Shown: positions 45,841 through 56,155 of the stretch, piece after piece
How positions within the stretch are numbered: position 1 is the stretch's first letter
How the letters are laid out: each line of letters starts with the position of its first letter
Assembly: GCA_945861465.1 (NCBI GenBank)
Contig: CAMAVB010000003.1
Span: 24,741-88,740, forward strand
Origin: Candidatus Kuenenia stuttgartensis
Lineage (GTDB): Bacteria > Planctomycetota > Planctomycetia > Planctomycetales > Planctomycetaceae
Direction of reading: 5' to 3'
Length of the DNA: 64,000 nucleotides
Notes under the pieces: generated by a model
The model's input: only the letters and a program-made list of their open reading frames with translations
Database searches by the model: none
What the model was told of the DNA's origin: nothing
Position numbers and translations under genes: made by a program

Positions 45841-45991
45841 AAGTCATAAACTGGCCAGCCGTGACGCTCGCAATCGTACCGAACGTGTATCGGCACAGGC
45901 GTGTCTCAAAGGATCTGAAGGCGTGCATTCGACGAATCACCGCGATTTGACTAGATTGCCGCTTCTACACGCGGGCATGAACGTGAGAAAT

Positions 45992-46061
45992 GGCGAACGG
46001 CATGCGTCAGCTTGCCGGTACAAAAACGAGGTACCGGAGGGCTCACGCCACTCCGCTCGCC
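45992..46061. repeat. Degenerate family A palindrome upstream of valS
   Basis: GGCGAACGGCATGCGTCAGCTTGCCG...CGGAGGGCTCACGCCACTCCGCTCGCC. Confidence 0.65.
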
Positions 46062-46144
46062 GGACTCATTTCTGGCCGCGCGGAGTGTACACCTCGCCTT
46101 CACGGCACGGCTTGATTCCCCTACATGCAAGTTTCCTCGTTCCC

Positions 46145-49100
46145 ATGACCACAGAACTTCCCAAGACGTACGAACCCGCGGCCGCACAGAATCGCTGGGT
46201 TGAACACTGGCTGAGCCACGGCTACTGCAACGCTGATCCGACTCCGGGCAAGGAACCGCATACGATCATGATCCCGCTGCCGAACGTGACGGGAGCCCTG
46301 CATATGGGGCATTGTCTGAACGGCACGATTCAGGATCTGCTGACTCGCTGGCGTCGCATGCAGGGCAGGGCGGCGTTGTGGATGCCGGGCACTGATCACG
46401 CTGGCATTGCGACTCAGGCGGTGGTTGAACGCCGGATGCTGGAAGAGGAAGGCCTGACTCGTCACGACATCGGCCGCGATGCTCTGGTCGAACGCATCTG
46501 GAAGTGGAAGGACGAGTACGAAGCTCGCATTCTGAATCAGCTCAAACAGATCGGTTCCAGCTGTGACTGGCGCCGAGTCCGCTTTACGCTGGACGAAGTC
46601 TGCAGTAAAGCCGTGCGCCGGACCTTCTTCAAAATGTTCAGTGACGGACTGATCTATCGCGGCAAACGCCTCGTGAACTGGGACACGTATCTTCAGACGG
46701 CTGTGTCCGACGATGAAGTGTTTCACGAAGACATCGCCGGGCACTTCTGGACGATGAATTATCCGGTTGTTGAAAGGCGAGCGGGGGGCGTTAGCCCTCC
46801 GAGTGATCTGACGGACAATTACCTCGGAGGGCTAACACCCTCCGCTCGCCAGGACTGGGTTCCCACCGGTCAGCGCATCAGTTTCTCCACGACTCGTCCC
46901 GAAACGATGCTCGGCGACACGGCCATCTGTGTTCATCCCACCGACGAACGCTACACCGACCTGATCGGTAAGCACGTTCAGATCCCTGCCAACGGTCGCA
47001 TCATTCCGATCATCGCCGATGCGTTGCTGGCCGACAAAACTCTGGGTACTGGTGCCGTTAAGGTCACGCCGGCACACGACCCGAACGACTACGCCTGCGG
47101 TCTGCGCAACAACCTCGAAATGATCAACATCCTGAACACGGATGGCACGATCAATGAAAACGGCGGCGAATACCAAGGCCTCGATCGCTTTGAGGCTCGC
47201 AAGAAGATTGTGGCTCGGATGGAGAGTCTTGGACACTTCGAGAAGGTCGAAGACCGTGTTATCCCGATGATGTACAGCGATCGTTCCAAGACGGTGATTG
47301 AACCGTTTCTGAGCGATCAGTGGTTCGTGAAAATGGACACGCTGGCTCAAAGCGCGATGGATGCCGTGGAAGATGGTCGAGTTCGCTTCTTCCCGCAGCG
47401 GTATGCCAAGACGTATCTCGACTGGCTGGGTGAGAAACGCGACTGGTGCATCAGTCGGCAATTGTGGTGGGGGCATCGGATTCCGATTTGGTCGAAGAGG
47501 GTTGAAAGATCTCACGATCCACTGCCTGAGTATGCCATTGAACGGTATCAGGCAGAGTTGTTTCCGTATGCAGGTACAGTGACTCCGGACGGGCTCATTG
47601 AGGTTCATGATAGTTTTCGCGACAAAGTCTTTGCGACGTTCGCACCTAACGACCCGACGTTGCTGCTGATCTGTGTTGCAGACGGAAATCCTGAGATTGA
47701 GCAGCAGCTGGAGAAAGCCGGGTGCACTCAGGATCCCGACGTCCTCGACACCTGGTTCAGCTCCGCGTTGTGGCCACACGCCACGCTGGGCTGGCCGGAT
47801 CGGGAACACGATCCACCAATGCAGCCAGCCGCTGGCGCGGCATCTCAAATTTCAAATTTGAAATCTCAAATTGACGGCATACGGAGGGCTGACGCCCTGC
47901 CGCTCGCCGGAATATCCGAAAACCGAAAACCGAAAACCGAAAACACGGCGAATGAAGTCCTCGACTTCTTCTACCCCGGTTCCGTCCTCGTCACTTCCCG
48001 GGACATCATCACGCTGTGGGTCGCGCGCATGGTGCTCACGGGACTTTACAACATGGGCGACGTGCCATTTAAACACGTCTACATCCATCCGAAGATTCTG
48101 GATGGGCTCGGACAGACCATGTCCAAGTCCAAAGGCAACGGCGTCGATCCGCTGGAACTGATTGAGAAGTACGGAACCGATGCGGTTCGCTTTACGATTT
48201 CCTCGCTCGCCGGGGAAACACAGGACGTGCGGTTGCCGGTTGGTTACGAGTGTCCGCATTGCCAGGCCATCACACCGCAGACCAGAGAGCATCAGGAAAT
48301 GCGGCCGATGGGCGGAGCGACTCCGTCACTCAAATGTGCCAAGTGCAAGAAGTCATTCCAGTTCCCAAGCCCGTGGTTCACGCCGGACGAAGGTGCTCCG
48401 GTCGCCCGTATCGTCAGCGAACGTTTTGAGTACGGCCGCAACTTCTGCAACAAGCTTTGGAACGCCTGCCGTTTCGCGTTCATGAATCTGGAAGGTTTTT
48501 CACCAGCGTCGGTCGCAGTGGCCGACCTGCAGGTGGAGGACCGTTGGGTGCTCAGCCGACTGGCGACAACGGTCCGCGAAGTCACCACGATGCTGGATCG
48601 CTATCAGTTCGACCAGGCGACTCGCGCTGTTCGCGAATTCACATGGAACGAATTTTGTGACTGGTACCTCGAGATGCTGAAGCCTCGCTTCCGCAACGAG
48701 GCCACTCGTCCGGTGGCTCAGCGATGTCTGGTCGTGGTGGTCGATACGCTGCTGCGACTGCTGCATCCATTCGCACCGTTTATCACGGAAGAACTGTGGC
48801 ACCTGTTCGCCCAGTTTGCACCCGTTCGGCCATCAAACGGGGTGGCCGGGGCTGGACCGAGCGCAGCGAAGGAAGCCCCGGGCGTGTTTGGTGAATCAAT
48901 CCAGGCCACCGAAAGTGTCATGGTCGCTCCATGGCCGGACATGTCGCTGAGCATGATCGATGCGGCATTGGAAAAACGTTTCGAACGCCTTCAGGAAACG
49001 ATCGTGGCCGTGCGCAACGTGCGATCATCGTACGGGATCGCTCCCTCGGCTCAACTGAAACTGTTCATGCGCTGTGCTCCGGATGTGGCGGAACAACTTC

Positions 49101-49447
49101 AGGCGGTTGCAAGCCAGTTTGACTTCCTGTCAAAGACCATGCTGGAAGCGGCCGGTCTGGATGTGACTGCGCCGAAAGGCTCAGTCAGCTTTTCACTGGG
49201 TGACGCAGACGGCTACCTACCGGTGGCAGACCTCGTCGATCTCAACGCCGAGCTGGTTCGTAAGAATAAGGAAGCGGAGAAACTCCGCGGCTTCATCAAG
49301 AGTCAGGAGGCGAAGCTCTCCAATCAAGGCTTTATGGCAAAAGCTCCGGCGGATGTCGTCGAAGGCATCCGTACGACAAAGGCCGAGCAGGAAGCTCAAC
49401 TGGAGAGCATCGAAAGGATCGTTCGGGAGCTGGGTGGATCGACGTAA
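46145..49447 (+). CDS. valS: Valine--tRNA ligase containing in-frame repeat insertions
   Basis: PNVTGALHMGHCLNGTIQDLLTRWRRMQG; STTRPETMLGDTAICVHP; MSKSKGNGVDPLELIEKYGTDAVRF. Start MTTELPKTYEP. Confidence 0.97.
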   Translation: MTTELPKTYEPAAAQNRWVEHWLSHGYCNADPTPGKEPHTIMIPLPNVTGALHMGHCLNGTIQDLLTRWRRMQGRAALWMPGTDHAGIATQAVVERRMLEEEGLTRHDIGRDALVERIWKWKDEYEARILNQLKQIGSSCDWRRVRFTLDEVCSKAVRRTFFKMFSDGLIYRGKRLVNWDTYLQTAVSDDEVFHEDIAGHFWTMNYPVVERRAGGVSPPSDLTDNYLGGLTPSARQDWVPTGQRISFSTTRPETMLGDTAICVHPTDERYTDLIGKHVQIPANGRIIPIIADALLADKTLGTGAVKVTPAHDPNDYACGLRNNLEMINILNTDGTINENGGEYQGLDRFEARKKIVARMESLGHFEKVEDRVIPMMYSDRSKTVIEPFLSDQWFVKMDTLAQSAMDAVEDGRVRFFPQRYAKTYLDWLGEKRDWCISRQLWWGHRIPIWSKRVERSHDPLPEYAIERYQAELFPYAGTVTPDGLIEVHDSFRDKVFATFAPNDPTLLLICVADGNPEIEQQLEKAGCTQDPDVLDTWFSSALWPHATLGWPDREHDPPMQPAAGAASQISNLKSQIDGIRRADALPLAGISENRKPKTENTANEVLDFFYPGSVLVTSRDIITLWVARMVLTGLYNMGDVPFKHVYIHPKILDGLGQTMSKSKGNGVDPLELIEKYGTDAVRFTISSLAGETQDVRLPVGYECPHCQAITPQTREHQEMRPMGGATPSLKCAKCKKSFQFPSPWFTPDEGAPVARIVSERFEYGRNFCNKLWNACRFAFMNLEGFSPASVAVADLQVEDRWVLSRLATTVREVTTMLDRYQFDQATRAVREFTWNEFCDWYLEMLKPRFRNEATRPVAQRCLVVVVDTLLRLLHPFAPFITEELWHLFAQFAPVRPSNGVAGAGPSAAKEAPGVFGESIQATESVMVAPWPDMSLSMIDAALEKRFERLQETIVAVRNVRSSYGIAPSAQLKLFMRCAPDVAEQLQAVASQFDFLSKTMLEAAGLDVTAPKGSVSFSLGDADGYLPVADLVDLNAELVRKNKEAEKLRGFIKSQEAKLSNQGFMAKAPADVVEGIRTTKAEQEAQLESIERIVRELGGST
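46776..46850. repeat. Family A palindrome inside valS (75 bp, in frame)
   Basis: Arms 46776-46801 and 46825-46850; encodes about RRAGGVSPPSDLTDNYLGGLTPSAR. Confidence 0.92.
47840..47956. repeat. Composite in-frame insertion in valS: AAATTTCAAATTTGAAAT palindrome, half family A arm and (CCGAAAA)n direct repeat
   Basis: CTCAAATTTCAAATTTGAAATCTCAAATT; CGGAGGGCTGACGCCCTGCCGCTCGCC (47882-47908); CCGAAAACCGAAAACCGAAAACCGAAAA. Confidence 0.8.
48835..48893. repeat. Family B (partial) insertion inside valS
   Basis: GGTGGCCGGGGCTGGACCGAGCGCAGCGAAGGAAGCCCCGGGCGTGTTTGG vs 17481-17528. Confidence 0.8.
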
Positions 49448-49462
49448 TGCTGTTTCAATCGT

Positions 49463-49540
49463 AGGCCGGACCAAGCGCAGCGCCGTTCCGGCACATGCCA
49501 TGTAAATGCCGGAACGGCGCTGCGCTTGGTCCGGCCTACT
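49463..49540. repeat. Family C palindrome GTAGGCCGGACCAAGCGCAGCGCCGTTCCGGCA...TGCCGGAACGGCGCTGCGCTTGGTCCGGCCTAC
   Basis: Near-perfect arms; inner element at 148-224 is a second copy. Confidence 0.92.
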
Positions 49541-49542
49541 TC

Positions 49543-50118
49543 TTATCGAACAGCCAACTTTGAATTCCCCAGCGTCAGACACAGCGCGAGCAATTGGGAC
49601 TGCATTTCAAGTCGATCTCCGATTGCTTTTGCAGTCATCACGGGCGGGGCGGGATTTTCCGGAAGAAACGGATCATGCGACGCGGGGTCGATAAGTCGCT
49701 GTATGTCCGCGTCATCGGACCTGCGACCGGACGACTGTTTCATGTGAATCAATTCGTCTCGTGAAACGACGCAGCAACGTTGATCATCAACGTTGAACCA
49801 TGTTCGCGAGTCCCATGCCGACTGAATCATTGGTGTGACTTCCAGAAAGTGCAGGGTGGTTCTCTCTGAGTTGCAACCTTTTGACATGGACAAAACTGCG
49901 ATCGCTGGTCGTCGTTTTTCATTGGACTGCAGAAATCCAAGATTGGAAACCACGTTACCGGCAGCTTCGATTGCGCTCAATGGCATCAGGAGATCAACTC
50001 CCGGCGTCGCTCGAACGAATCCATGAATTGCCAACGCTACCGCCCCACAAACCGAATAGTCGATGTGCTGCTGTTGAAGTGCGTTCGTGACAGCCAGCAT
50101 GTCGTCTTTGAAGATCAT
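49543..50118 (-). CDS. Nucleotidyltransferase-like protein
   Basis: LQQQHIDYSVCGAVALAIHGFVRATPGVDLLMPLSAIEAAGNVVSNLGF, resembling the DUF6036/AbiEii nucleotidyltransferase N-terminus. Confidence 0.65.
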   Translation of the reverse strand: MIFKDDMLAVTNALQQQHIDYSVCGAVALAIHGFVRATPGVDLLMPLSAIEAAGNVVSNLGFLQSNEKRRPAIAVLSMSKGCNSERTTLHFLEVTPMIQSAWDSRTWFNVDDQRCCVVSRDELIHMKQSSGRRSDDADIQRLIDPASHDPFLPENPAPPVMTAKAIGDRLEMQSQLLALCLTLGNSKLAVR

Positions 50119-50211
50119 CGCTATGCTTCCTCAGATCTGTCGGTGTGCTTCAGACCTCGAACAACTCGCGAAACCAACGAACAAACGGCTCCGCAGCAGG
50201 CGAGTTTGGAT

Positions 50212-50832
50212 TCAGGATCGTCTCAGAAACAGCCTGATGCAACTGCCGTCCCGGTCATCCTGCCATGCCAGCCATGTATGAATCTCGGCCTTTCGGACAT
50301 GGGTGTCTTTGTACGGTGCGTCCAGGTTCGCTTTGGCGTGCTGGCATGACTGCCTTGCGTAGATCAGCATCGGATCGGCTTCGCCACCCGGAACCAATTG
50401 CAGAAGAAATGCTTCGAGCATTCCGTGCGATTGATTGTCGGGCATGATCCAGATCCCCAGTTTTTGGTTATCGCTGTTGGAGACGATCAGGCCGTCAGGA
50501 GTTGGTACTTCTGGAAGTCCTGGAAAGTACGGGAGGCAGCAATTTCGAATGTCGATCCATCGTTCTGTGAATGCCTGATCTGCATCTAGAATGATACCGG
50601 TAATTCGCCGGGAAGTTTCCCGGATCGCTGCTTCGATGACTGCACGATCAACGATATTCTGAAATCCATCTTTGTCTCGAATCTGGACTGACGCATTGGC
50701 CTTGTCGTCGGGCCATGCCACGCCGTTTGCTTCCATGAGAAATGGAATCAGACGAACTTCAGTGGCTCCTTCGACGAGCAGTACTTTCTCACGCGGTGGG
50801 TACGACATTTTCCTTCGGGACGCCGCAGTCAT
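50212..50832 (-). CDS. DUF3226/TOPRIM-like protein
   Basis: KVLLVEGATEVRLIPFLM (Glu motif); ITGIILDADQAFTERW (DxD); LGIWIMPDNQSHGMLEAFL. Confidence 0.8.
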   Translation of the reverse strand: MTAASRRKMSYPPREKVLLVEGATEVRLIPFLMEANGVAWPDDKANASVQIRDKDGFQNIVDRAVIEAAIRETSRRITGIILDADQAFTERWIDIRNCCLPYFPGLPEVPTPDGLIVSNSDNQKLGIWIMPDNQSHGMLEAFLLQLVPGGEADPMLIYARQSCQHAKANLDAPYKDTHVRKAEIHTWLAWQDDRDGSCIRLFLRRS

Positions 50833-51911
50833 CGGACTTCGTTCCCGAACTCAGCGACCGCTTTGATGGTTGCCTCAGAATACGAAATCGATTTGGATTT
50901 ACCGGCTTCAATCCGGTGAATCATGACTTCGCTGTCTTCAAAGACGCCCTCACGAGAAATTGAATCGAGAGCATCGACACAATCACGACTGTGGGTTGTG
51001 GCGAACACCTGGACGTTATTCGCCTTCGCTGCTTCGAGTACGAGCTTCCACATCTTTTCCATGACGGTATAGTGAAGACCGCTGTCAATTTCATCAACAA
51101 ACAGAAATCCGCCGCGTGATTCAACGACTGACAAAGCAAGTCCAAGCAATCGCCGCATTCCATCGCCATATGACCCAATTGGTATGCGTGCCGCGACTCC
51201 TCGCTGCCCGACCAGGATTGTTCTTCCGTGCGAGCCGATCGTGCGCAGATCCATAATTGAATCCTCGATACTGCGCATCGCGTCGATTACAAATCCCTCT
51301 TCATTTGGATTCCGCAAAACTCGCTCTAACTCGTCGACGATATCATTTTCGCCTAATCCCGCTGCTGGAATGAAAACAGCGGATCGTTGTCGGCGAGGCG
51401 TTCTCGGACGATAGGCCAGCTGAAAGCCCCCGGAATATCGACTCAGCGTCGTGTCGGAAACATTCCGCCCTCTCCACGAGATTCGGACATGAAATGGCCA
51501 TTCAGATGATTCCAATGGAGTACTGCTGTCAGGATCGTCTAAATTTACTACTGTGCTACGTTCTACGTATGCAGCGAATAGGTGAGTCGAGAATTCTCCC
51601 GTCTCGTCAATTCCTGAAATCTTAAGTTCAGCACCGTCGTCAATCTGATGACCTGAAAAAATGTGACTGAGGTCATGCAGGGTCATTGCAGGCCGATCTG
51701 TCTTCGGCGGAATTTCTATCATTTCGTTGCGGCGGCGAGTGATCTCATAAAGTGGGGCAAGAGTGTCCTGCTCGACGAATACCTGAATGGCTTCAAGGAC
51801 GGAAGTCTTTCCGCTGTTGTTATTTCCAACGATCAAATTGATTCGGCCAAGTGGCTCAAGCGAGAAATCCCGAAGCCCTCGGTAACCCTGAATGTGGACC
51901 GCGCTTAGCAT
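50829..51911 (-). CDS. AAA/OLD-type ATPase
   Basis: INLIVGNNNSGKTSVLEAI Walker A; YGDGMRRLLGLALSVV; GGFLFVDEIDSGLHYTVMEKMWKLVLEAAKANNVQVFATTHSRD. Confidence 0.92.
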   Translation of the reverse strand: MLSAVHIQGYRGLRDFSLEPLGRINLIVGNNNSGKTSVLEAIQVFVEQDTLAPLYEITRRRNEMIEIPPKTDRPAMTLHDLSHIFSGHQIDDGAELKISGIDETGEFSTHLFAAYVERSTVVNLDDPDSSTPLESSEWPFHVRISWRGRNVSDTTLSRYSGGFQLAYRPRTPRRQRSAVFIPAAGLGENDIVDELERVLRNPNEEGFVIDAMRSIEDSIMDLRTIGSHGRTILVGQRGVAARIPIGSYGDGMRRLLGLALSVVESRGGFLFVDEIDSGLHYTVMEKMWKLVLEAAKANNVQVFATTHSRDCVDALDSISREGVFEDSEVMIHRIEAGKSKSISYSEATIKAVAEFGNEVR

Positions 51912-51972: not shown

Positions 51973-54900
51973 TCATGCCAACAGAATAATCCAGATAGAC
52001 ACATCGACATCGCCAACGGATACTTCCTTGACTCCAACTCCGGCAGACGGTGAAAAATCAATGGAATCCGCCAGGGTTTCACGGCAGATATAATCGCCCC
52101 ATTCAGCAACCATCACCTGAACTGCATTGTCAGCCGAGTGGTACTGAACTCGAATGCGATCCTGAATGTTGAGGTTCGCGTCTTTTCGAAGCTGCTGCAC
52201 CTGACGAACGAAGTCGCGGGACATGCCTTCGCGGATAAGTTCCGGAGTGAGGACCGTGCTGATCGCGACCTGAATGCCGGAGTCGTCAGAACAGACCCAT
52301 TCTGCGGCCTGGACGGTGCTGATGAGCACGTCATCCGGTGTGAGATCGACGCTGCTGCCTTCAAGTTCAACCGTTAGGTTTTCGCCTCGCCGAAGCGGCG
52401 ACAGGACTGCGTCGCCCAGTTCAGGAAGTCTGGTCCGCAGAGCGTTCAGCAGCTTGCCGTATTTTGGACCGAGCGTTTTCAGGTTCGGCTTGTAGGCGTA
52501 GCTGACGAGTGCATCGAGGTTGTCCTGACGCACGACGCGGTGGATGTTGAGTTCTTCGCCGATGACATCGGCGAGTCGTTCGATGGCTTCGGCGGTGCCG
52601 ACATTCGACGATGCAAAGCGGAGTTCCGCCAGCGGCTGACGGACTCGAAGGTTGGACTCTTCCCGCAGCTTGTGCGCCAGTCGAACAACCTTTTGAGCGG
52701 CGGACATGCTCAGATTGAGACCCGCGTCGAGCAGGGCAGTGTCAGCAGTGGGATAGTCGCAGAGGTGAACGGAGGGCGGGAGTGAGTGTTCAGTGTTCAG
52801 TGTTCGGTGTTCAGTAAGAGCAACTTCACCGCGATTTTCTGAAAACTGAACACTTTCAACTGAACACTCCTGGCCAAGTACCAGGTTCTGGTACATGCGT
52901 TCTGTAATGAACGGGATGCACGGAGCCAGCAGTCGGCAGAGCGTGACGAGAACCTCGTAAAGCGTTTCGTACGCGGCATTCTTGTCGGTGTCGGTGGCGT
53001 CTTTTGAACGCCAGAAGCGGCGGCGGTTTCGGCGGATGTACCAGTTGCTGAGGTCGTCAATGAAACCGGCTGCCGCAGCGCAGAACGCCGGCGCGTTGTA
53101 CTGCGTCATCTCCCGATGAGCGACTTCAATGAGCGACTGCAGATTGGAAAGGATCCAGCGATCGATTTCCTGGCAATTATTCAGGCGAGCGGCAGGGCGT
53201 AAGCCCTCCGAGTTCGCGCCGGCCGTTTCCACGGAGGGCTCACGCCCAGCCGCTCGCCGCCGCAAGTCATCACTCGGCACAAAACCGTCCGCGATCGCGT
53301 AGTCCACGAAGAATTTGTAGCAGTTCCACAATGGAATCAGGATCTGCCGACGAGTTTCATCCGCTGGTCCGCTGGTGACCATACACGTTGTAACACCCTC
53401 CAGCGTCTTTTCGATCGGCCCATCCGGCGTTTGCAGCGTGACGGGTTTGTCGTTGTGGCGCGTTCCGAAGCGAAGATCCATCGCCGGATTGTGAGCCAGA
53501 TACATCCAGCGCATTGTGTCCACGCCGAGCTGTTCGGCGGCCTCTTCGAACCAGATCGCCGTGCCGTCGGACTTGTGCATCGGCTTGCCCTGTTCGTTTT
53601 GCACAAGACGATGACCGAGCAATGTGCGGAACGGTTTCTTGTCCTCGGCGTTATCCGCTTCGTCGTAACGCATCATGGTGGACAGCGACAGCATGGAATA
53701 AAACCAGTTGCGGAACTGCCCAGGGAAACATTCGGTCACGAGATCTGCCGGATACCACTTCTGCCATTCTTCCCGGTTGGTGTTGTAGCCCATCGTGCTG
53801 AACGGCACGATGCCCGCGTCGAGCCACGGATTGCCGACATCAGGGACGCGCCGCATCCGCTGGCCTTCTTTGCCGGGCGTCTGGCTTTCGATGATGACGC
53901 CGTCGATCCACGGTCGGTGCGGCGTGTTGCCTTCGAAATCTCCCCAGCCTTCGATCGATCGTTCTTTCAGTTCAGCAAGTGAGCCCATCACTTCGAAGTC
54001 CGACGGATCTTCTTCGTTAACCCAGATGGGCAGGGCGAGCCCCCAGAAACGTTTCTTGCTGATCATCCAGTCGCTCATGTTGGACAACCATTCGATCTCC
54101 CGTTCCTGTCCGTCAATGCTGTCCGGCAGCCATTTGATTTGCCGCGTGACATCCTTGATCTCGTCCCGCCAGTCCATGTTGATGAACCATTCATCGACGA
54201 GTCGGAAAACGAGTTCGTCACCAGTTCGCCAGCAATGCGGATAAATGTGCGGATACGTTTCGACAGCAACGAGCATGCCTTTGGCCTTGAGCTTTTCGAA
54301 GACGAGTTCAGCCGTGGCCGGAGCGATGGCTTCCAGGCCGGCAAAGTCTCCGAACTCTTCGGAGTACGTGCCTTCGTCTTTCAGAGGCGCGATGATCGGC
54401 AATCCAAGCGCGACTCCCATTTTGTGGTCGATGTCACCGCAACCGGGCGCGATGTGGACGATGCCTGTACCTTCCCCTGCGACGACATTGGCACTGCCTC
54501 GTGAATCCCGGCCGCCATCGATGACGCGATGACTGTTCACGCCGCAACGGCTAAGATTGTTTTCATCGACAGGCACACCGCCTGGCTGCCGCTGAGCTGG
54601 CAAGTCGTCAAAGGGACCTTCGTAGTCCCAGCCAATCATCTCGGCACCTTTGATCGTGCCGAGTTCTTCGAAGCCGCCTTGTTCTTTGAAGATCTGGGCC
54701 AGGGTTTTCAGCTTGCCGACTCCTTCTGGCCATTTCCATTCCGGGCGTCCAAAGCCATCACGGAATTCGGTCGCCAGTCGCTGGTAATTCAGATTGTCCT
54801 TTGCGAAGTAGTAGATGGCGTTGTCGCGTTTAGCCTGAATCCTGATGTAGTCCAGATCGGGGTTGACGGCGCAAGCGACGTTGCTGGTGAGCGTCCACGG

Positions 54901-55797
54901 GGTTGTGGTCCAGACGAGGAGGTACTCCTGGGCTTGTGATTCTGGCGAGCGGCTGGGCGTCAGCCCTCCGTGTTCTTCGCGGTCATTTCCTCGGAGGGCT
55001 GACGCCCTGCCGCTCGCCGAGTCGCGAATGATCGGAAAACGCACGAACACGCTCTTATGCGTCGTCAGTTTTCGGCCTTCGGCGATTTCCATCTGTGAAT
55101 ACGCACTGCCGCCGCGGCCGGACCAGGGCATGACGTCGTGGCCCTGGTAGATCTTGCCGCGTTCGAAACATTTTTTCAGGAACGTCCAGATGGTTTCGTT
55201 GTTCTCGGTACTGAACGTGAAATAGCTTCCGCCCCACTCCGAATTTCCAAGTCGCTCGACAAGCTGATGTGCCCTGGCGGTTTCGGTCTTGCCAGTCGGA
55301 GTCGTGATCGTGACCTCTTCGTCAGTGCCAAGTTGTTCCGCCAACTGGCGAAGTTGATCGGGGTTGTCCCAGTCCATCCAGTAACCGAGTCGCTGCGATT
55401 GTTCGGTCTGTCGAGCCGCAAACCTGAGGACTCGACGTTTGCATTCGTTGACAAAGTTGTCGATGCCGAATTCATGGACGGCGGTTTTCGTGCCGAGCCC
55501 CAATTGCTTTTCGACTTCAACCTCGACCCACAGCCCCTGGCAGTCGAAACCATTCTGGAATCGCTGATCATGGCCGGTCATCGCAAAGAAGCGTTGATAT
55601 GTGTCTTTGTACGTGCGGCCCCAGGCGTGATGGACTCCCATAGGGTTATTGGCAGTTATGGGACCGTCGAGAAAGCTCCAACGCTTGCGGCCCGCGTTCT
55701 TTCGTCGCAGTTGCTGAAACGTCTGCTGCTGAAGCCAGAGTTTCAAAACGGAATGTTCGCCGGTGACAAAATTGCTGTCGGTGACAGGTTGAAACAT
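51973..55797 (-). CDS. ileS: Isoleucine--tRNA ligase containing in-frame repeat insertions
   Basis: [76 protein letters not shown]. Start [10 protein letters not shown]. Confidence 0.97.
52784..52869. repeat. GTGTTCAGTGTTCAGTGTTCGGTGTTCAG / CTGAACAC inverted repeat inside ileS (family H)
   Basis: GAGTGTTCAGTGTTCAG... and ...CTGAACACTTTCAACTGAACACTC; encodes about [29 protein letters not shown]. Confidence 0.85.
53184..53258. repeat. Family A palindrome inside ileS (75 bp, in frame), copy 2
   Basis: Arms 53184-53210 and 53232-53258; encodes [25 protein letters not shown]. Confidence 0.92.
54944..55018. repeat. Family A palindrome inside ileS (75 bp, in frame), copy 1
   Basis: Arms 54944-54970 and 54992-55018; encodes [26 protein letters not shown]. 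Confidence 0.92.
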
Positions 55798-55976
55798 GAG
55801 AATGAGGAACCAGAATCTGCGATGGAACAAAACCTTGTGAAAACTACCAGTCGCATATTCTAGGAGGAATCGCCGCCTCGTGACAGGCAACCGTGAGTGA
55901 TTGAAATTCCGCGTTTGTGAGCTGGGGCAACTGGCGGAACGGCGGATAAACATGTACTTTATATCGGAATTATGAT

Positions 55977-56155
55977 GTTTAACCGCGTGGGCATCGCCCA
56001 GCGCAAGCGCGGGGACTGTCGTCTTCATCGTTTAACGGCAAGCCGCAGGCGTCGGTGCCAGGTTCGTCTACGCCTGCGGCTCGCCGTTAAACGAAAATGC
56101 CGGTGTTGAAGACAAAAACGACAGTCCTGGCGGCCCGCTGGGCACGCGGTTAAAC
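55977..56155. repeat. Nested hairpin upstream of DUF1559 gene, three levels of inverted arms
   Basis: Outer GTTTAACCGCGTG.../...CACGCGGTTAAAC; middle GGACTGTCGT..CTTC/GAAGAC..ACGACAGTCC; inner 56029-56093 CGTTTAACGGCAAGCCGCAGGCG/CGCCTGCGGCTCGCCGTTAAACG. Confidence 0.88.

Follow-up and report, generated by a model that had tools for sequence, protein, structure and literature searches.

An ATPase-DUF3226 gene pair resembling the candidate defence system PDC-M38, apparently inserted between ileS and a degenerate resident nucleotidyltransferase gene

ATPase-gated TOPRIM nucleases include the OLD, Gabija, retron-associated and PARIS systems. OLD, Gabija and PARIS form the basis of the mechanistic analogy used here (PMC10568477, PMC12409363). 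In OLD of B. pseudomallei the two-metal site is composed of E400, E404, D455, D457, E508 and K562 (PMC6755086). A guilt-by-embedding survey (Payne et al. 2024 preprint) put forward the PDC systems as candidates, most of which await validation (PMC12988326). One of these, PDC-M38 in PADLOC-DB 2.0, has two components encoded adjacently on one strand with the ATPase first: an ATPase, M38A, and a DUF3226 protein, M38B. The literature searched yielded no mention of DUF3226 or PDC-M38 and no experimental study of the family.

A gene pair with the same components and order lies in the window, the stretch of 64,000 nucleotides from Candidatus Kuenenia stuttgartensis that was analysed. The top PADLOC match of the first protein is PDC-M38A (1.8e-71, residues 1-360 on profile positions 1-383 of 383) and that of the second is PDC-M38B (7.6e-45). 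By these profile matches the pair is an already catalogued candidate defence system, a listing that the first-pass annotation of this DNA did not contain. That annotation had described three ORFs on the minus strand between valS and ileS, with the stop of the ATPase gene overlapping the TOPRIM gene by 4 bp. The ORF check and the sequence agree on the coordinates, the location and the overlap (Table 1). Transcription runs from ileS through the ATPase, TOPRIM and nucleotidyltransferase genes, and about 31 bp separate the original DUF3226 stop from the nucleotidyltransferase start. The pair has a GC content of 0.50-0.53, slightly below the 0.55 of the window. Promoter-like sites do not exceed chance. 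Six terminator-like sites were found where 2.9 ± 1.7 are expected, none of them convincingly placed. Between valS and the nucleotidyltransferase gene there is a perfect 33-bp inverted repeat (49461-49539), whose 30-bp core GGCCGGACCAAGCGNAGCGCCGTTCCGGCA has 72 exact copies in the genome against 0 in the control; the copies are often paired in inverted orientation at a distance of about 42 bp. It is a REP/BIME-like dispersed element.

Table 1. Genes and remnants at the locus, in window coordinates
Feature	Coordinates	Strand	Remarks
ATPase gene, ABC-type, PDC-M38A-like, AAA_15/AAA_21	50829..51911	-	360 aa; PADLOC, Pfam, motifs, predicted fold
TOPRIM-like DUF3226 gene, PDC-M38B-like	50212..50832	-	206-aa ORF; Pfam, PADLOC, residue conservation, fold
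Frameshifted remnant of DUF3226	50150..50254	-	Last ~34 residues of the family plus stop codon, out of frame with the 50212-50832 ORF
Nucleotidyltransferase-fold gene, resident, degenerate, outside the two-gene unit	49543..50118	-	Position after ileS in relatives
ileS, upstream housekeeping flank	51973..56028	-	61 bp before the ATPase start
valS, convergent flank	45923..49447	+	

The ATPase also matches Pfam AAA_15 (4.7e-25) and AAA_21. The Walker A sequence GNNNSGKTS and the VDEIDSGLH block reported earlier are both present, the former at residues 29-37 and the latter within a Walker B/D-loop segment, FVDEIDSGLH, at residues 271-280. A signature-like SYGDGMRR (residues ~247-254) and an H-loop histidine (H307) complete the ATP-site motifs, which are near invariant among 77 relatives. 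The protein ends in E358-x-R360 (window 50829-50840). E358 is kept in 74/77 relatives and R360 in 76/77, and E-x-R forms the exact end of the ORF in 72/80 ATPase ORFs. This near-invariant terminus suggests a docking or gating tail. The ATPase model has a pLDDT of 76, and its nearest folds are the PtuA, SMC, Rad50 and GajA ATPases (Z 16-18; PtuA 17-18).

The second protein had been assigned to DUF3226 rather than DUF4435, and Pfam agrees (PF11536, 3e-47). Its other Pfam and PADLOC matches, to OLD-like_TOPRIM, Old and JetA, are all weak. Neither AriB nor DUF4435 was matched at E<=1 in the Pfam and PADLOC searches, and AbiLii was not matched at E<=1 in PADLOC. The Glu motif LLVEGATEVRLI and the acidic motif ILDADQ noted before are both found in the sequence. 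E21, E25, D83, D85, E140 and K181 fit the OLD two-metal site, forming the pattern of the OLD-type TOPRIM nucleases: Glu, an acidic residue at +4, DxD, a Glu in the first helix of the helical domain, and Lys. These residues would correspond to those of the OLD site, as mapped by motif order and spacing rather than by superposition. The TOPRIM catalytic residues that the first-pass annotation had proposed to look for are thus present in the window protein and conserved in nearly all of 66 near-full-length relatives. Four residues (E21, G22, D83 and G137) do not vary, D or E occupies position 25 in 66/66, and E140 and K181 are kept in 64/66 and 65/66. Position 85 is D in 48/66 and N in 18/66.

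For an AlphaFold2 model of the DUF3226 protein (pLDDT 79, 17 sequences) the closest structures are OLD C-termini (Z 8.4, 131 aligned, 5.7 A; Z 8.1, 104 aligned, 3.2 A), and PH0156 comes next (2p62; Z 8.0, 174 aligned, 6.1 A), although taken alone a Z of about 8 lies in the range where a merely common arrangement is possible. DnaG primase scores a Z near 6. Retron Eco2 and OLD are the top Foldseek matches, at E about 4e-3. A single-sequence search of the PDB returned nothing at E<=1. The profile search found PH0156 (2p62, 4e-4), which is taken as a real match, and gave weak pointers to 1t6t (0.07) and RNase M5 (0.55). TAL-effector matches to the profile (up to 1e-12) were discarded, being sums of many sub-threshold repeat matches with no single repeat passing.

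The 206-aa ORF has the coordinates given in the first-pass annotation; it is not the whole gene, as the C-terminus sits in another frame. Up to about residue 193 the ORF agrees with the family; its last ~13 residues are off-frame. Frame translation places the family C-terminus PGRQLHQAVSETILNPNSPAAEPFVRWFRELFEV and a stop codon in the other frame. This peptide matches PF11536 positions 167-208 (1.0e-5) and is close to the tail of the relative of highest identity (L072, ...AWQDPPGRQLHNAVMENIFSTNHPLLSAFTGWFRRLYQL). Since the family C-terminus is found in another frame, the window gene is frameshifted near codon 193, with the family's C-terminal ~34 residues removed by a true mutation or by an assembly error. 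The assembly consists of 474 contigs, and a single-base error in it may be the source. The window copy of the pair may be functionally impaired. Split or partial DUF3226 frames also occur in four other PDC-M38 copies (L125, L157, L158 and L159) and a split ATPase in a fifth (L143), which suggests that decay is frequent. In the ATPase tree the window protein has a long branch (1.43; its sister L099 has 0.42), as relaxed constraint might produce. The locus may be a decaying remnant with no present function, a reading that is compatible with the one preferred below for the family. The frameshift, the long branch, the split frames elsewhere and the degenerate nucleotidyltransferase described below all point that way. 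On the other hand, the ATPase has an unbroken frame with intact motifs, every catalytic residue of the TOPRIM protein precedes the frameshift, and the frameshift may itself be a base error in this fragmented assembly. We regard a functionless locus as possible rather than probable. A second, diverged PDC-M38 pair is present in the same genome next to a GAPDH gene (C106; L065 7123-8881); both of its frames are open and its ATPase Walker A is altered (GKNNTAKT versus GxNNxGKT).

Bacterial and archaeal genomes were scanned with the ATPase alignment alone, since the DUF3226 alignment is short of conserved stretches. Co-occurrence with DUF3226 is therefore an independent test. Out of at least 525 loci the 80 best-scoring were taken, so that the figures hold for the closer relatives. 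DUF3226 is encoded directly downstream on the same strand in 78/80 of these best-scoring loci, and the nucleotidyltransferase in 0/80 of them within the stretch examined per locus. The co-occurrence check proposed in the first-pass annotation thus yields a pair, and its grouping of all three genes into one cassette does not stand.

In seven genomes of the same genus (G003, G004, G005, G011, G012, G014 and G017) the nucleotidyltransferase gene begins 10-24 bp after the ileS stop with no pair between, and in the three contigs of relatives that reach far enough a convergent valS follows, as in the window. The window pair sits between ileS and the nucleotidyltransferase gene. Because seven congeners have ileS directly followed by the nucleotidyltransferase gene, the pair was most probably inserted into a pre-existing ileS-nucleotidyltransferase-valS arrangement. 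No target-site repeat was found at its junctions. DUF3226 was found in 0/17 other genomes of the genus and in 25/392 genomes of the phylum. Core synteny of the cassette across planctomycetes, which had been named as an observation that would count against it, is therefore not seen, and the patchy occurrence agrees with the earlier view of the pair as accessory. Loss of the pair from the seven genomes was considered and rejected; it needs more events and leaves the wider absence unexplained. A PDC-M38 pair of another planctomycete (L078, G291:C72) also neighbours a valS gene, which it immediately precedes, whether by coincidence or through an insertion preference.

The third gene had been likened to AbiEii/DUF6036 nucleotidyltransferases. 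This holds for its relatives, which match AbiEii, DUF6036 and NTP_transf_5, and not for the window protein itself, which has no Pfam match. Where relatives have TQDIDLL and LDL, the window protein has TPGVDLL and LHF. Its DxD has become GVD and its third Asp is His, so that two of the three catalytic aspartates are lost and the AbiE/AbiEii-type set of DxD plus a third Asp is absent. Matches of the window protein to the PDB were to eS25 only and were rejected as spurious. The nucleotidyltransferase gene of relatives has a small neighbour of ~75 codons, which overlaps it or comes next; in the window, residues ~147-191 of the nucleotidyltransferase are an in-frame fusion with this small partner. 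The nucleotidyltransferase and small gene (~75 aa, motif VDMSxEAIxxRL, without a family) recur after ileS and elsewhere in the genus (L050, L051, L054 and L068) and are possibly an unnamed toxin-antitoxin-like pair. The frameshift in DUF3226, the lost aspartates and the partner fusion are new here. In a three-gene defence cassette, the ATPase, a TOPRIM effector and a nucleotidyltransferase acting as toxin, antitoxin or signal maker would cooperate. Such an arrangement accords with the shared strand, the 31-93 bp spacing and the AbiEii/DUF6036 matches of the third gene's relatives, but it is made very improbable by the absence of the third gene from the 80 ATPase loci, by its position after ileS in seven relatives that lack the pair and by its degenerate active site. 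The nucleotidyltransferase is an older, decayed resident beside which the ATPase-DUF3226 pair landed. The locus is an example of a resident neighbour that is easily mistaken for a member of a defence cassette.

The 80 loci span Cyanobacteriota, Planctomycetota, Pseudomonadota, Acidobacteriota, Gemmatimonadota, Chloroflexota and other phyla. Their immediate neighbours are mostly not defence genes and include housekeeping genes. The 122 immediate neighbours give few PADLOC matches, mainly to Uma2/PDC-S03. Uma2/PDC-S03 is abundant in cyanobacteria, and therefore no defence island is claimed from the neighbours. The mostly non-defence neighbourhood, the Asn at position 85 in 18/66 relatives and, for the window copy, the frameshift and the long ATPase branch speak against the reading preferred below. 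The pair could instead be a nuclease for genome maintenance or the cell cycle, as has been proposed for the archaeal OLD-family ATPase Cran1 (PMC12796447). Besides this precedent, the SMC/Rad50-like ATPase fold, the housekeeping neighbours and the presence of DUF3226 in M. jannaschii favour such a role. In the ATPase tree the cyanobacterial proteins are nearly a single clade, as would likewise be expected if the pair had a non-defence role and were stably inherited. Against this, the pair is patchy in the phylum and missing from the congeners, and it travels on small mobilizable plasmids and in temperate phages. A maintenance role is therefore unlikely.

DUF3226 genes occur on nine plasmids, of which several are small and mobilizable; Acinetobacter, Citrobacter, Klebsiella and Plesiomonas are among the hosts. 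Examples of intact pairs are those of the Citrobacter plasmid NZ_CP055541 and of a Gemmataceae locus (L101). A Plesiomonas copy is preceded by P2-like tail genes (phage tail protein, tail X and D-like genes). The pair is present in 17/39 matching IMG/VR contigs. In two of these (L186 and L203) O-like/P-like replication genes precede the pair and a Q-like antiterminator follows it. The region between P and Q carries accessory genes in lambdoid phages. DUF3226 had no match in GenBank phage genomes, and two prophage copies had no near match in E. coli genomes. Carriage on plasmids and prophages, and two tightly linked genes whose ends often overlap, are also what would be expected of an addiction or toxin-antitoxin-like unit that mainly stabilises these elements, with phage defence secondary. 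This is less likely still than a maintenance role, because the first gene encodes a 360-aa ABC ATPase, unlike the usual antitoxins, and because similar ATPase-TOPRIM two-gene units, as in PARIS, are defence systems.

The reading we prefer, with a probability of about two in three, is that the ATPase and DUF3226 genes form a mobile two-gene unit, PDC-M38, encoding a phage-defence nuclease that resembles OLD/PARIS and is gated by its ATPase partner. The strict pairing, the ATPase and TOPRIM motifs, the patchy distribution and the presence on plasmids and in prophages are observed; how the unit would sense, gate, cut and protect is inferred by analogy. Probably assembled as a dimer or higher oligomer, the ATPase would keep the TOPRIM nuclease inactive and sense a change caused by the phage. 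ATP binding or hydrolysis would then license or release the nuclease, which would cut nucleic acid by two-metal chemistry, with phage DNA (as for OLD/Gabija) or tRNA (as for AriB of PARIS) as the target. Phage growth would be stopped, probably via abortive infection. More tentatively, PDC-M38 may represent split OLD nucleases that form a very widespread type of immunity separate from PARIS. The E-x-R tail would then engage or gate the TOPRIM site of DUF3226, and the cargo slots (lambdoid P-Q, P2-like tail genes, small mobilizable plasmids) would reflect phage-phage conflict. The family merits testing, given its occurrence in many phyla, near-absolute linkage, mostly conserved nuclease-like site and plasmid and prophage cargo positions.

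The first-pass annotation had pointed to the ATPase + TOPRIM layout of split OLD-type and PARIS systems, and this likeness is borne out by the OLD-type motifs, the OLD-like fold and the two-gene pairing. In PARIS an OLD-type ABC ATPase gene (AriA) is likewise followed by a TOPRIM gene (AriB), with a probable ATPase-gated effector. The window partner is DUF3226 instead of AriB/DUF4435, and the AriA models match the window ATPase at 1.4e-27, far below M38A, which may reflect no more than a shared superfamily. OLD proteins of class 1 and 2 (Old, GajA) have the same metal ligands and lysine and the nearest TOPRIM fold (Z 8.4), but they are single polypeptides, whereas the window pair is two separate ORFs. 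In class 2 (Gabija) a UvrD-like helicase gene, gajB, lies downstream, where the window has the nucleotidyltransferase gene and then convergent valS. AbiLi of the AbiL system matches the window ATPase over its full length (1.2e-49), a score below that of M38A, and the window partner does not match AbiLii. The PtuA-PtuB systems of the Septu and retron Ec78 type share the ATPase fold (Z 17-18), but PtuB is an HNH nuclease, whereas the window partner is TOPRIM and no reverse transcriptase gene is adjacent. PDC-M38 has both components in the same arrangement, and the window copy differs from it in the frameshift near the C-terminus of M38B. The locus is a copy, probably damaged, of a catalogued candidate; the family would extend the ATPase-gated TOPRIM nucleases by one more class.
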